A DNA stretch of 64,000 bases from Ignavibacteriae bacterium HGW-Ignavibacteriae-1 (GTDB lineage Bacteria > Bacteroidota > Ignavibacteria > Kapaibacteriales > UBA2268): contig PGYU01000005.1 of assembly GCA_002839825.1 (NCBI GenBank), forward strand, positions 186,001 through 250,000, given 5' to 3'. How positions within the stretch are numbered: position 1 is the first letter of the stretch; each line of letters starts with the position of its first letter. A program made the translations under genes and the position numbers. Below, piece after piece: positions 8,590-16,162 of this stretch. A model generated the notes under the pieces. That model had not been told where the DNA came from. It saw only the letters and a list, made by a program, of their open reading frames with translations, and did not search any database.

Positions 8590-10830
8590 CTACCGCTTCG
8601 AAATAGTTTTCTTCTGCTTGGTTTTTGATTCATCAGTGATTTTCATGTTTTTCAGCTCTTCGAGATATTGCAAATCTTTGACTCTCGCTGGACTATAGCC
8701 CAGAGCTTCGAAGTCCATGATGCCGGTGGGTGAGTGGCAATCTTTACATTCGAATGCTTTGCCGGTTATTCCATGGTTGACCATCAATGTGCCGAATTGA
8801 CGCATCCAATTTGGTTCGACATTGACAAGTTTGCCATCTTTCAGCGGATATTCGGTTTTCCAGCCGTCAACGCCGAAGTAGTACATAAATTCATCCATCA
8901 TATAGAGTTTGAAGGGTGTTTCGTACATACGCTTGACAATTGGATGTTGAATAGCCTTCATGACTGCGTTTCTTGTTTTGCCGGTCTGATAGTATGTCGG
9001 GTAATCGAATGGCAATATCATAGCTCCGTATGGTCCTTGATTGGTCATATCTTCATACATATTGGCATTAAACAATTTGAATGGATATATTTTGCTTTTC
9101 CCTTGTTTCATGATCGAGCGAAGGTTTTTCTCAATCATTTCTGCTCGTTTTTTAACAGTTTCAGGAGGAAGAACGCTCAAAGTATTCGTAACGCGCTCCA
9201 CGTATTGGTCTATGTCAATGTCAGGATATTGTTTTTTCAGTTCGATTGCGGCATTTCTGACGGCAAGAATGATTTCCGGGTCGGTGATTTTTGTCAGTTG
9301 ATTCATCAATGGATTGTAAAGTCCCAAACCATTTGGATTGTCTCCTAAGGCATTTGCTAGGAAAGTTCCGTTGCCGTTGAACCATAAATATGCGAAGCCT
9401 TTGCCGGCTTGACCTGAACGGTAAATATCAGTTGGTGTGTACAATCCTTCTTCGGGTTCGTAAGTCGGATAGACCCAATCACGGAGCACAACATTCTTAT
9501 TTTCAAGATGAGTTATGTGGCAAGTTTCGCAAGCCAAACGATTCACGTGCCCATTCAAAATCACTCTGAATTGCTTGCTGCGAGTGTGCGGAGCGTCGGT
9601 ATGACAATTTTCACAAGCTACTTCTACGTCGGGCAAATCATTCGATACAAGGTCTGTGCCTTTTGTACCGCGGGGTAATTTATGACCCTGAGGCACATGG
9701 CAATCTGTACATTGCAAACCTGCTTTGTAATGAACGTCGTTTTCGTAGCTGAAGGGGTTTCCACGCTTAGCTCCGGGATGTAGTAATCGCTGATTTTTGT
9801 AGCCTAAGCTTTTTGCTGAAACATTATTTTCGTACAAATCTCCACCCATATTATGTTGGTGGCAATTCAAACAGTTGTCGTTTTGTGGTTTACCTACTGT
9901 TAGTGCGGCGCGCATTGTCCTATCTTGATTCCAACGAGTGCCATTGTCATCTTTTACAACATATTTATAATTCATATCGTAGGATTGGGAGTGACATATT
10001 AGGCAATCAATTCCGTCTTGAACAAATGTTGGTATGTCTCCAATCGGCATCATCAATTCTGTTGCCGGGTGATAATTCCCACCAATGTGACATTGCCCGC
10101 AACCTTCGCTTCTCCAAACAGTTTTTGATGATTTTGATACTTCGCCATTTTCGTCATGATGTTCGGGTGTAGTTTCTACTAATGCTGCCCACCCGGTCCA
10201 CGAAAAGCTGCCGGGAATGCCACAAGCTCTGTCAATTTTCCCTACAGGAATTTTTTGCATTCCTTCGTTGACCTTTCTACCATCGTAACCGTAAGTTGAA
10301 AAAACGTCACCTGAACTTTGGAATTTAAAGTGAACAGTCGAAAGGACGTCTTCCATTGTGTTTACCTTTTTGCTGCTTCCATCAGGCAAATGGACATTCA
10401 TTGTTTCATGGCATTGCAAACATGTTTTGGGTCCTTCGTACTGTCTAATTCCGGCATCACGGAAGTATTTTATATGGCTGAATTCGTTTTTTTGCTTATA
10501 GGAACGTGTTCGCATCAAAGTATTGATTCTTACGCTTCGCGAAAATTCATCTTCTTCGCTAATTGACTTATTAGCTCTTTGGAGCCTCAATTCCTTTGTC
10601 AAATCTTCAGCTAATGCTTCGAACTCTGAATCTGTAAGTTCGACAGAAGTGTCGAACGTTAAGCGTTCATTGGTTACACCTGTGTAGGATTCAAAAATTG
10701 GATTGTAAAGAAATGTCATAAAAATCAAGGCGAATACGCCAATTGCAATCAATGAATATGCTGCCCAAGCTCTTTTGTTTCTCGGTTTCAAAGGCGAAAA
10801 GAAATTTGATAATTTTTCTGTGAATTTCAT
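8590..10830 (-). CDS. Octaheme c-type cytochrome, tetrathionate-reductase (OTR)-like
   Basis: Protein of 746 residues with one N-terminal membrane helix (about 22-42) and eight CxxCH haem-binding motifs at roughly residues 137, 244, 276, 320, 374, 406, 434 and 695. The motif spacing and the flanking text (DCLICH, NCLNCH, LQCTDCH..GH, CENCHTDAPH, LNGHVNRLACETCHITH) recall octaheme tetrathionate-reductase-family cytochromes of the NrfA/HAO superfamily. The eighth motif lies after a haem-free stretch of about 260 residues, which I do not recognise. It is probably anchored in the inner membrane facing the periplasm. It follows the heptaheme gene by 11 bp. Substrate unknown: sulfur or nitrogen oxyanion reduction or extracellular electron transfer are all possible. 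Confidence 0.75.
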   Translation of the reverse strand: MKFTEKLSNFFSPLKPRNKRAWAAYSLIAIGVFALIFMTFLYNPIFESYTGVTNERLTFDTSVELTDSEFEALAEDLTKELRLQRANKSISEEDEFSRSVRINTLMRTRSYKQKNEFSHIKYFRDAGIRQYEGPKTCLQCHETMNVHLPDGSSKKVNTMEDVLSTVHFKFQSSGDVFSTYGYDGRKVNEGMQKIPVGKIDRACGIPGSFSWTGWAALVETTPEHHDENGEVSKSSKTVWRSEGCGQCHIGGNYHPATELMMPIGDIPTFVQDGIDCLICHSQSYDMNYKYVVKDDNGTRWNQDRTMRAALTVGKPQNDNCLNCHQHNMGGDLYENNVSAKSLGYKNQRLLHPGAKRGNPFSYENDVHYKAGLQCTDCHVPQGHKLPRGTKGTDLVSNDLPDVEVACENCHTDAPHTRSKQFRVILNGHVNRLACETCHITHLENKNVVLRDWVYPTYEPEEGLYTPTDIYRSGQAGKGFAYLWFNGNGTFLANALGDNPNGLGLYNPLMNQLTKITDPEIILAVRNAAIELKKQYPDIDIDQYVERVTNTLSVLPPETVKKRAEMIEKNLRSIMKQGKSKIYPFKLFNANMYEDMTNQGPYGAMILPFDYPTYYQTGKTRNAVMKAIQHPIVKRMYETPFKLYMMDEFMYYFGVDGWKTEYPLKDGKLVNVEPNWMRQFGTLMVNHGITGKAFECKDCHSPTGIMDFEALGYSPARVKDLQYLEELKNMKITDESKTKQKKTISKR

Positions 10831-10841
10831 TTTATACTCTT

Positions 10842-11771
10842 TTAAATTTTATTTTTATTAGTTATTATTCTTAGTATTATATGGAAAGCGATTCCACTCA
10901 TTGTGGCGATTAGGATGATTAAACTCAAAATATCAAGTGTTGCATTCCTTGTCGAGCCGATAACGTAAGCCCGGCTGAGCAATGAACCGTTTACAAAACC
11001 GTAACTTTTGCGGTCTTCTCTTAAAGTATAGCGATAAAGTTTATCGAAAAGCTTTGTATCCTTTGTATGGCAATTCTCACAGTTTCTGAGAGCCTTGTCT
11101 TTACTCATAATATTGTGGGAAAGATTAGGTGCATCGTACGAACTATGGCAATCAACGCATCTAACAGTTGCTAAATGTTTATTGATATTTGGCAACCACT
11201 CATGCGTTGAATTGATATCGGGCATAGACCTCTCAGTAAGGCTCACAAACTTTTCTGTTTGAGTATGACAATTAAGACACATTTTGTTGTCCGAACTGAT
11301 TTTGTCGAAATTTGGCAGACGATTTCTCTCGAAAACATGAGGGTCATGACAACTAAAACATGAAAATTTGTCGCCTAATTTTGAAAAATGTACTGATGAA
11401 GAGAATTCAGATTGGATATCGTTGAAATATAGCTCTGACTTTTTTTGAGAATATTCAGCTTTTTCGGAAAAAAATATTGAACCCGATGAATGACACGACA
11501 AGCACGTTAGTGATTTTGCCGAATCATTATTATGGGGCCACATGCCATATTCGCCTTTGTGGCAAACTATGCAATCTAATTTTGCATGATTTGAATTTAA
11601 GAAACTTGCTTTATCCACATGGTAGTTTTTTTTGTAGCCAAGCTCAGGAGCAAGAACCGACAATGTAGGTGAATTGTGACATTTGAAGCATCTATCATTT
11701 TGAACACTATCTAAAGCTACGACTTTTGTCGTTAAAATCAGGAGCATTATAGTTATCAATGCACTTTTCAT
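10842..11771 (-). CDS. Heptaheme c-type cytochrome with C-terminal membrane anchor
   Basis: Protein of 309 residues with a signal peptide (about 1-19) and seven CxxCH motifs at residues 28, 67, 90, 138, 165, 205 and 231. A single hydrophobic helix (about 280-301) near the C-terminus is preceded by AYVIGSTRNATLD. The layout fits a periplasmic electron carrier tethered to the inner membrane, probably taking electrons from a quinol-linked partner. SSVHFSKLGDKFSCFSCHDPH is typical of multihaem respiratory proteins. It is the first gene of a two-gene operon with the octaheme cytochrome 11 bp downstream, so it probably feeds that protein. No cytochrome b or NapC-type gene is adjacent. Confidence 0.75.
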   Translation of the reverse strand: MKSALITIMLLILTTKVVALDSVQNDRCFKCHNSPTLSVLAPELGYKKNYHVDKASFLNSNHAKLDCIVCHKGEYGMWPHNNDSAKSLTCLSCHSSGSIFFSEKAEYSQKKSELYFNDIQSEFSSSVHFSKLGDKFSCFSCHDPHVFERNRLPNFDKISSDNKMCLNCHTQTEKFVSLTERSMPDINSTHEWLPNINKHLATVRCVDCHSSYDAPNLSHNIMSKDKALRNCENCHTKDTKLFDKLYRYTLREDRKSYGFVNGSLLSRAYVIGSTRNATLDILSLIILIATMSGIAFHIILRIITNKNKI

Positions 11772-11815
11772 AAATTTATATTGCTAATCAGTAATATTAC
11801 ATATGCAATATAATA

Positions 11816-11845
11816 CATGTTACAGAAATGACAATAAAATAGTTG
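11816..11845 (-). promoter_or_regulatory. Possible promoter of the cytochrome operon
   Basis: On the minus strand, ATTG (11842-11845), 19 bases and TATATTG (11816-11822) approximate the Bacteroidota consensus TTTG-N19-TAnnTTTG, each box one base off. Start of transcription would fall about 40 bases before the heptaheme ATG. Imperfect match, so tentative. Confidence 0.4.
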
Positions 11846-13430: not shown

Positions 13431-14612
13431 ATGAACAAACTGAAGATTGCTATTTTAATCGCACTAAGTGGTTTGATTATTCATTCTTGCGATACAAATT
13501 TGCCTGTAGATTCTACATCTGCAGATATGTCAAATTCAGATAATAACACTTATATTGTTGTTGTCGAACAATCTGACGAGTTACAAGGGGCTGGCGGACA
13601 AAATTCGCTTATGAACATACTACAGGGGAACAATATTGACGAATCGAACATTACACATACATACAACTCACTTTTTCTTGGATTTTCAGCTAAATTAAGT
13701 CAAGAAGAAGTAATTGCCTTAAACAATGACAAACGAATTATCAGCGTTGAACTTGACCAAAAAATTCAGATGATTGATGAACTGGAAAGTATTGACAATG
13801 AAAGCGGTAAAAGTCCGGAATTGCAATCTCAGTATACTCCTTGGGGAATACCTGCAGTTGGCGGATCTGTAAATGCCAATTATTATACCGGAGTTGCTTG
13901 GATTCTTGATACAGGAATTGATTTAATGCATCCGGATTTGAATGTTGACTTGAATTTAAGCAGATCATTTGTAAATCGCGGAATTGATAGAAATACCGCT
14001 AAGGATTTTAATGGGCATGGTACCCATATCGCCGGTACTATTGCCGCCATAAACAATGGCTACGGAGTAGTTGGAGTTTGTGCCGGTGCAAAAGTAATCG
14101 CTGTTAAGGTTCTGGATTACAGAAGCTATGGATATATATCTGAATTCATAGCAGGATTAGACTATGTTGGCGCTAATCTGGTGTCAGGAAGAACAAATGT
14201 CGTCAATATGAGTCTTATTGCAAGCGCTTCGACTACACTTGATAATGCTGTTAAAAGATTAGCATCAAAAGGAGCCTATGTTGTAGTAGCAGCCGGCAAT
14301 TACGGAAGAAATGCTGCTTATTATTCTCCTGCAAGAGTAAATGCTACTAATGTTTTCACAATTTCTGCTTATGACAGCAGAGGCTACTTTGCTTCATTTT
14401 CAAATTATGGAAACCCACCTATAGCTTATTCTGCTCCGGGGCGTAGTATACGCTCAACTTATAAGAACGGATCGTATGCTACAATGTCTGGTACGTCAAT
14501 GTCAACACCACACGTTTCTGGGATTTTACTTGCCAATAACGGTAGTATTAACTGGAATGGAACTGTACGCTATGACAGAGATGGCACACCCGATAAAAAA
14601 GCTCATCGTTAA
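13431..14612 (+). CDS. Subtilisin-like serine protease lipoprotein, copy 1
   Basis: Peptidase S8 protein of 393 residues. A lipoprotein signal (lipobox ending HSC, Cys20) is followed by an Inhibitor_I9-like propeptide (about 40-115) and the catalytic domain. The triad is Asp160 (WILDTGIDL), His196 (NGHGTHIAG) and Ser356 (GTSMSTPHVSG), with oxyanion-hole Asn290 (AAGN). All are intact, so activity is expected. The oddity is the substrate-binding strand: residues 261-264 read SLIA where subtilisins, and copy 2, have SLGG. Two glycines lining the S1 pocket are replaced, which should change or restrict substrate choice. No T9SS sorting domain follows. It is the left member of a tandem duplication. 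Confidence 0.9.
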   Translation: MNKLKIAILIALSGLIIHSCDTNLPVDSTSADMSNSDNNTYIVVVEQSDELQGAGGQNSLMNILQGNNIDESNITHTYNSLFLGFSAKLSQEEVIALNNDKRIISVELDQKIQMIDELESIDNESGKSPELQSQYTPWGIPAVGGSVNANYYTGVAWILDTGIDLMHPDLNVDLNLSRSFVNRGIDRNTAKDFNGHGTHIAGTIAAINNGYGVVGVCAGAKVIAVKVLDYRSYGYISEFIAGLDYVGANLVSGRTNVVNMSLIASASTTLDNAVKRLASKGAYVVVAAGNYGRNAAYYSPARVNATNVFTISAYDSRGYFASFSNYGNPPIAYSAPGRSIRSTYKNGSYATMSGTSMSTPHVSGILLANNGSINWNGTVRYDRDGTPDKKAHR

Positions 14613-14980: not shown

Positions 14981-16162
14981 ATGAATAAACTGATGATTGT
15001 TATTTCATTCGCATTATTGGTTTTGCTATTTAATTCATGCGAAACCAATGTGCCTGTAGATTCAACATCTACAGAATCTGCAAATTTAAATGACAATATT
15101 TATATTGTCATTATCGAAACAACTGACGAGTTGCAGCGGAATGGCGGAAAGAACCCGTTAATGAACATACTGATAGACAACAATATTGATGTAACGAATA
15201 TAACTCGTACTTACACTTCGCTTTTTCTTGGGTTTGCCGCTAAACTAAATCCTGAACAGGTCAATTCCTTAAACCATGACAAAAGAGTAATCAGCATTGA
15301 ACCCGACCAAGAATATAGGTTGATTGATGAACTTTTTAGTGTTGATAATGAAAGCGGTAAAAGTCCTGAATTGCAAGCACAGACAACTCCCTGGGGAATA
15401 AATGCTGTTGGTGGCTTTGTCACAGCTACCTCAAATACCGGAGTTGCTTGGGTTGTTGATACAGGTATTGACTTAGACCATATAGACTTGAATGTTGACT
15501 TGAATTTAAGCAAAACATTTGTCAATAGAGGCGATGATGCGAATACACCTGATGATTTTCATGGGCATGGCACACATGTCGGCGGTACGATTGCAGCCTT
15601 GAACAATAGTTACGGAGTAGTGGGAGTTTGTGCCGGTGCAACACTTATCGCTGTTAAAGTTTTGGATTACAAAGGCAGTGGTTATATTTCGGAAATCGTT
15701 GCAGGCTTAGACTATATTGGTGCAAATATGGTGTCAGGAAAAGCGAACGTTGTCAACATGAGTTTGGGTGGTAGTGCTTCGACCACACTTGATAATGCTG
15801 TTAAATCATTAGCATCTAAAGGGGCTTATGTAATTATAGCAGCAGGCAATTCTAGAAAACCTGCTTCTAATTATTCTCCTGCAAGAGTTGATGCTGTAAA
15901 TGTTTTCACTATTTCTGCATTTGACAATAAAGGGAACTTCGCTTCTTTTTCAAATTATGGAAACCCTCCAATTGATTATTCTGCTCCGGGCGTTAGCGTC
16001 CAATCAACGTATAAGGGCGGACAATATGCTACTATGTCAGGTACATCAATGTCCACACCACACGTTTCGGGGATTGTACTTGCAAATGACGGTACTATAA
16101 ATTGGAGCGGTACTGTGAAGAGAGACAGAGATAAAACACCTGATAAAAAAGCTCGTCGTTAA
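14981..16162 (+). CDS. Subtilisin-like serine protease lipoprotein, copy 2
   Basis: S8 peptidase of 393 residues, collinear with copy 1 without gaps and clearly its duplicate. The lipobox ends FNSC (Cys20), then an I9-like propeptide, Asp160 (WVVDTGIDL), His196 (HGHGTHVGG), Asn290 (AAGN) and Ser356 (GTSMSTPHVSG). Unlike copy 1 it keeps the standard substrate-binding SLGG at 261-264, so it is the better candidate for the ancestral activity. It is expected to be anchored by lipid in the periplasm or on the surface. It has its own promoter and terminator and converges on the intact GT2 gene. Confidence 0.92.
   Translation: MNKLMIVISFALLVLLFNSCETNVPVDSTSTESANLNDNIYIVIIETTDELQRNGGKNPLMNILIDNNIDVTNITRTYTSLFLGFAAKLNPEQVNSLNHDKRVISIEPDQEYRLIDELFSVDNESGKSPELQAQTTPWGINAVGGFVTATSNTGVAWVVDTGIDLDHIDLNVDLNLSKTFVNRGDDANTPDDFHGHGTHVGGTIAALNNSYGVVGVCAGATLIAVKVLDYKGSGYISEIVAGLDYIGANMVSGKANVVNMSLGGSASTTLDNAVKSLASKGAYVIIAAGNSRKPASNYSPARVDAVNVFTISAFDNKGNFASFSNYGNPPIDYSAPGVSVQSTYKGGQYATMSGTSMSTPHVSGIVLANDGTINWSGTVKRDRDKTPDKKARR

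Follow-up and report, generated by a model that had tools for sequence, protein, structure and literature searches.

A heptaheme and octaheme cytochrome gene pair related to OTR and its proposed electron input from cytochrome b561

Background

Multihaem cytochromes encoded side by side raise the questions of where their electrons come from and what, if anything, they reduce. To our knowledge, the crystal structure of octaheme tetrathionate reductase (OTR) has been determined and its natural role is cryptic. In the current analysis we have considered a stretch of 64,000 nucleotides of an Ignavibacteriae genome, referred to here as the window, that encodes an OTR-type octaheme protein next to a heptaheme protein. 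The modular electron input that we propose for this octaheme protein is visible only by comparison with its relatives.

The gene pair

The heptaheme c-type cytochrome gene (10842..11771, minus strand, 309 aa) lies upstream and is the first of the pair; it is followed by the octaheme c-type cytochrome gene (8590..10830, minus strand, 746 aa). The two are separated by a gap of 11 nt (10831..10841, minus strand), at which most of the relatives have a cytochrome b561 gene of about 210-250 codons. The CxxCH motifs start at residues 28, 67, 90, 138, 165, 205 and 231 of the heptaheme protein and at residues 137, 244, 276, 320, 374, 406, 434 and 695 of the octaheme protein. The pair with fifteen such motifs, as originally predicted, is thus borne out by the reading frames and by motif counts far above those of composition-matched shuffled proteins (means of 0.03 and 0.01), and no other ORF of the 64-kb window has multiple CxxCH motifs.

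A near-identical copy of the pair is found in the locus L004 (JAGXRP010000045.1), the octaheme proteins of the two sharing 95% sequence identity. This contig is titled Desulfobulbaceae and is largely syntenic with the window; the bin is probably mislabelled or chimeric. The dN/dS values of the two genes against the L004 copies are 0.043 and 0.069, with dS of about 0.5-0.6, and both genes are therefore maintained under strong purifying selection. Two subtilase genes in tandem (S8 with I9 prodomain) are also present in the window at 13431-14612 and 14981-16162, of which L004 has a single copy; the tandem is probably a recent duplication.

A scan of the locus for promoters and terminators gave counts not above those of shuffled sequence. 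Beyond the heptaheme, b561 and octaheme genes, no conserved neighbour is common to all the relatives. The NrfD/hydrogenase genes beside the copy of Rhabdochromatium marinum and the M16 peptidase and radical-SAM genes beside members of the group F2 (described below) are not general.

Both of the membrane anchors that had been proposed for the pair are recovered in the hydropathy profiles. The heptaheme protein has an N-terminal signal peptide and a C-terminal helix at residues 276-304 (anchor codons of about residues 276-309 at 10845..10946, minus strand; AF2 helix 277-308). The octaheme protein has one helix at residues 20-47, close to the N-terminus, which from its charge pattern is probably an uncleaved signal anchor.

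Relationship of the octaheme protein to OTR

A single-sequence search of the PDB with the octaheme protein has identified the Shewanella OTR (1SP3) with an E-value of 9.9e-15, the match covering haem 8 and the 'LGY' segment that follows it. A profile of 27 family sequences matches 1SP3 with an E-value of 8.8e-47 in three stretches that span haems 1 to 8. OTR is the only full-length match of this profile, while the matches to NrfA and to the eight-haem nitrite reductase are short and confined to the region around haems 4-6. The eight CxxCH motifs are retained in the order of OTR.

The AF2 model of the octaheme protein has a pLDDT of 69.8, falling below 50 around K355. The sole significant match of this model in Foldseek is again 1SP3 (E-value 4e-7), with poor superposition (rmsd 12.6), and the structure models therefore support only the relation to OTR, haem placement being beyond their reach. 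Motifs 7 and 8, at residues 434 and 695, are 261 residues apart (haem-free stretch at 8749..9516, minus strand), in agreement with the stretch of about 260 residues noted beforehand. As the corresponding spacing in OTR is already 179 residues (1SP3 numbering), the long gap is a feature of OTR to which a clade-specific insertion has been added.

The original prediction also described the protein as resembling OTR-type reductases and suggested a search against TIGR04315. That search gives 85.3 bits against a curated cut-off of 375, and relatives of the window type score about 55-86 bits. The kinship with OTR therefore stands, through the homology to 1SP3 over haems 1-8 and the Foldseek match, whereas membership of the OTR family proper does not, the protein belonging to a separate clade. 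The likeness to HAO that had been mentioned together with OTR has found no support beyond the short matches around haems 4-6. Other known families have been considered as well. Membership of the HAO/ONR/NrfA group was rejected on account of these short matches and the lack of a CxxCK motif, and that of the MccA sulfite reductases on account of the lack of a CX3-17CH motif (the haem motif of MccA is CX15CH). The score against MmcA (TIGR04314) is 24.5 bits with a cut-off of 250, and haem 2 is present.

A sister clade with scattered hosts

In the maximum-likelihood tree the relatives fall into three groups: F1 (the window type, 19 rows), F2 (7 rows) and I3, which comprises the two shorter proteins L031 and L032. 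F1 has support values of 98/99, and a branch with 100/98 separates F1, F2 and I3 together from the OTRs. The octaheme protein belongs to this strongly supported, unnamed sister clade of OTR. One protein, L024_1, is probably a relative of HAO/hydrazine dehydrogenase, with a match to NF052343 in one A1 member and a very long branch; it was grouped with the OTRs in the alignment used for haem ligands, and the conserved positions are unchanged by it.

The hosts of F1 include Bacteroidota, Calditrichota, Poribacteria, Pseudomonadota, Spirochaetota and others; most are metagenome bins and some of the assignments may be wrong. This scattered occurrence points to horizontal transfer. Only two of the 396 sampled genomes of the window's own phylum encode a full-length F1 copy, and the OTR-like matches on plasmids are all weak and partial. 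The F1 clade is not simply a replacement of OTR, since a true OTR is also present in 8 of the 24 carrier genomes. Octaheme proteins of this family are encoded without heptaheme or b561 in L005, L017 and the F2 clade (L021-L028). Operons that are nearly identical to each other, flanks included, are found in L014 and L015 (SulCav bins labelled Caldithrix and Turneriella), which may be due to recent transfer or to misbinning. No description of a heptaheme-b561-octaheme operon was found in the open literature searched, which is weak evidence of absence.

Haem ligands and the presumed active site

OTR is known to have seven bis-His haems and a catalytic haem 2 that is ligated by a highly conserved lysine (PMC11024163). 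Seven His residues outside the CxxCH motifs of the octaheme protein (119, 167, 367, 383, 415, 428 and 686) are conserved in the alignment of F1, F2, I3 and OTR. The sole non-haem cysteine, Cys203 (codon at 10222..10224, minus strand), is aligned with Cys64 of OTR. From these conserved positions, seven of the haems should be bis-His ligated, and haem 2 should be the catalytic one, for which a lysine is expected as the distal ligand.

The candidate for this lysine lies in a KR(G/A) motif, residues 354-357 A-K-R-G (9760..9771, minus strand), proposed as the counterpart of K153-H154-G155 at haem 2 of OTR. K355 and R356 are invariant in all 28 clade members and are followed by G or A at position 357. 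The OTRs read CHxxGGGxxxxKHGDL in 27 of the 28 sequences of the data set, and the I3 proteins L031 and L032 read CHEHSFSEDYKRG. By phmmer against 1SP3 and also by hhalign, the K-R-G of these two proteins pairs with K153-H154-G155. In F1 and F2 about 22 extra residues precede the motif as compared with I3 and OTR. Direct alignment of F1 with OTR (MAFFT, four modes) places Glu334 and various other residues, and no conserved lysine, opposite K153. It was at first read from this alignment that the catalytic lysine has been lost, a reading set aside in favour of the short-loop bridge that L031 and L032 provide by two methods. The catalytic lysine is thus probably kept as K355 in a displaced KR(G/A) motif, in which Arg356 would replace His154 of OTR. 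Since direct F1-to-OTR alignment does not support it and the model has a pLDDT below 50 at K355, this is a step that we infer.

The single exception among the OTRs is encoded by the host itself (C39:13821-15080; L064 7768-9225, minus strand). This atypical protein passes TIGR04315 with 488 bits and has NHGG in place of the canonical KHG lysine and Phe in place of Cys64.

The heptaheme anchor and cytochrome b561 in relatives

Eighteen F1 loci with upstream DNA, the window and L030 included, form the basis of the counts given here. A heptaheme gene is present in 16 of them and is missing in L005 and L017. Twelve of these 16 loci, among them that of the cultured R. marinum, have a b561, encoded either between heptaheme and octaheme or as a fusion. 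A protein of about 210-250 aa lies between heptaheme and octaheme in L006-L012, L014, L015, L019 and L020, and L030 encodes heptaheme and b561 as a single fusion protein. PF01292 (cytochrome b561) matches the proteins of L006, L010, L012, L014 and L020 with E-values of 1e-22 to 1e-28; that of L019 clusters with the other operon b561s when read in the right frame. The b561s keep four His residues, which are enough for two haems b. The heptaheme-type loci devoid of b561 are the window, L004, L013 and L016. A 924-aa cytochrome b/b6 fusion with 11 haem motifs is encoded at 12613-15387 in L016, just downstream of its b561-less octaheme gene, and may serve as a substitute quinol module.

The heptaheme protein has seven candidate distal His residues (62, 80, 128, 145, 190, 199 and 219); its AF2 model is too weak for placement of the haems. 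It was considered as a member of the NapC/NrfH family (TIGR03153/PF03264), which has an N-terminal anchor, and rejected with 20.7 bits against 134.2 and an anchor at the C-terminus instead. His297 within the anchor helix is kept in all 13 anchored heptahemes aligned, and the helix resembles the one found in true OTRs that are encoded beside b561.

In the collected loci of true OTRs, each of the 26 proteins with a helical C-terminal anchor containing H(G/A/S) (L033-L048, L050-L057, L068 and L073) has a b561 encoded next to it, as against none of the 10 OTR or I3 proteins that are without such a helix. R. marinum encodes both arrangements: in L073 a b561 comes after a true OTR, and the F1 operon is present with all three genes. 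In L013 and L016 the heptaheme is replaced by a hexaheme, and haem 7, its presumed ligand His199, the anchor helix and b561 have all been lost. The heptahemes of the window and L004 retain the anchor and haem 7, with b561 gone from the operon. The co-occurrence of helix and b561 suggests that the helix is probably a b561-docking element, borne by OTR itself in the true OTRs and by the heptaheme protein in F1. This pairing could be a general rule for the electron input of OTR-type proteins.

A candidate b561 in the host genome

No PF01292 cytochrome b has been found on the contig of the window by profile search. Judging from the relatives, the missing operon b561 is a derived state. The observation that no cytochrome b is adjacent to the pair holds; the electron source, which had been left open, now has a specific candidate in the b561 of the relatives. 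PF01292 is matched at three places elsewhere in the host genome, one in C17 and two in C8, and the genome of L004 has the corresponding three places.

The b561 of C17 shares 38-54% identity with those operon b561s that are in the correct frame (54% with that of L030) and 27-37% with the ones linked to OTR, and in the b561 tree it nests inside the operon clade; the rows L009 and L019 of this tree look mis-framed, with very long branches, and were ignored. The gene follows that of a 13-haem protein, which shares 48% identity with the window heptaheme over its C-terminal part together with the anchor. The C-terminus of the window heptaheme is at most 42% identical to heptahemes other than that of the near-identical L004. 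It is plausible that the C17 b561 serves both the 13-haem protein and the window heptaheme; since it has its own 13-haem partner, such sharing is no more than plausible. The C17 cluster (L062 6858-12674, minus strand) encodes a hexaheme cytochrome, a 415-aa protein, a Rieske protein, a small c-type cytochrome, the 13-haem cytochrome with its anchor of the b561 type and the b561, and is a possible quinol:cytochrome c complex.

Proposed pathway and its alternatives

Taken together, we consider it fairly probable that the pair belongs to a quinol-linked respiratory reductase, of which it forms the periplasmic half. A small dihaem membrane b561 would oxidise menaquinol, and the heptaheme protein, docked on it through the C-terminal helix, would take up the electrons and pass them along its seven bis-His haems. 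They would then enter the N-terminally anchored octaheme protein, an OTR-type enzyme with a Lys-ligated haem 2, which would reduce a small soluble oxyanion. With the b561 gene gone from the operon of the window, the b561 of C17 probably acts in trans as the cognate subunit. For the substrate we can only guess at a sulfur oxyanion such as tetrathionate, because relatives come from sulfidic settings (R. marinum, Thiomargarita and the SulCav bins). Nitrite is less likely, as the host genome encodes NrfHA (above cut-off) in addition to the atypical OTR of C39. A bolder reading, which we offer tentatively, would give the pair an enzyme class of its own inside the OTR superfamily: a dedicated respiratory complex, from menaquinol to octaheme protein, that would have a re-lined active site with KR(G/A) for KHG, a substrate other than tetrathionate and one b561 in trans common to the heptaheme and the 13-haem partner.

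The occurrence of the octaheme family without heptaheme or b561 (L005, L017 and F2) weighs against the reductase pathway. The octaheme protein could instead be an electron conduit that passes quinol electrons to other cytochromes or to extracellular acceptors and is no enzyme. MmcA of Methanosarcina, an OTR relative without haem 2 and its lysine, is a precedent (PMC11024163), multihaem cytochromes and b/c modules abound in the host genome, and the replacement of His154 would agree with such a role, as would a ligation of haem 2 by the newly conserved His326 or His351. Each of these two His residues is, however, missing from some clade members while K355 is present in all, and the haem-2 motif and Cys203 are likewise conserved clade-wide. 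A mass of about 10 kDa per haem also puts the protein in the 'peptide replete' class (>7 kDa per haem), which is associated with catalytic proteins (PMC7096707). We therefore regard a mere conduit as unlikely.

A flow of electrons in the reverse direction, with a reduced compound (e.g. a sulfur species) as electron donor to the octaheme protein and the quinone pool fed through heptaheme and b561, would suit the phototrophic sulfur oxidiser Rhabdochromatium and the Thiomargarita bin among the relatives, and b/c modules of the CbcL/MtoC type are proposed to work both ways (PMC6295460). It is improbable in view of the fact that the best-characterised activity of OTR is that of a reductase and that most other hosts are from lineages such as Zixibacteria, Cloacimonetes and Calditrichota, which are largely anaerobic. 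The redox range of OTR resembles that of MmcA, -100 to -450 mV (PMC11024163), and is low though compatible with donation to quinone. The loss from the operon of a b561 that most relatives have could also mean that the pair is a stranded, non-working remnant. The low dN/dS values, and the intact state of all the motifs and the anchor in two separate assemblies, make this very improbable.

Comparison with known systems

The F1 clade and the OTR-b561 pairs suggest a path, open to testing, by which electrons of the quinone pool may reach enzymes of the OTR type. The complete F1 operon of three genes and a true OTR that has a b561 of its own are both present in the cultured strain Rhabdochromatium marinum DSM 5261, so that donor and substrate could be addressed in one organism.

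The octaheme protein shares with OTR (SO4144, PDB 1SP3, TIGR04315) the order of the eight CxxCH motifs, the seven distal His, the Cys64/Cys203 position, a similar C-terminal region after haem 8 and the fold match. It differs in having an N-terminal anchor with an N-terminal extension of about 110 aa, insertions that precede K355 and haem 8, KR(G/A) for KHG, and a separate heptaheme partner that bears the presumed b561-docking helix. MmcA (TIGR04314) is likewise an OTR-related clade, yet it has seven haems and is without haem 2. The OTR-b561 pairs, which occur in many Bacteroidota and in R. marinum (L073), resemble the present system in tying an OTR-type protein to b561 through a His-containing C-terminal anchor. 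There the anchor is on OTR, whereas in the window it is on the heptaheme protein and the operon is devoid of b561.

In its design, the pair may also be likened to quinol:cytochrome c oxidoreductases that combine a dihaem b-type with a multihaem c-type cytochrome, namely CbcL/MtrH/MtoC (3-23 haems) and Mco of ANME (PMC6295460, PMC9012536). CbcL has nine haems and a HydC/FdnI-like b (PMC6295460), and Mco consists of a VhtC-like b and a 7-11 haem protein (PMC9012536). A b561-multihaem module of this kind, recognised by PF01292 adjacent or fused, is found in 12 relatives and not beside the window pair, and the natural fusion in L030 has the layout of CbcL. In contrast to CbcL and Mco, the module of the F1 clade is coupled to a dedicated octaheme OTR-like protein.
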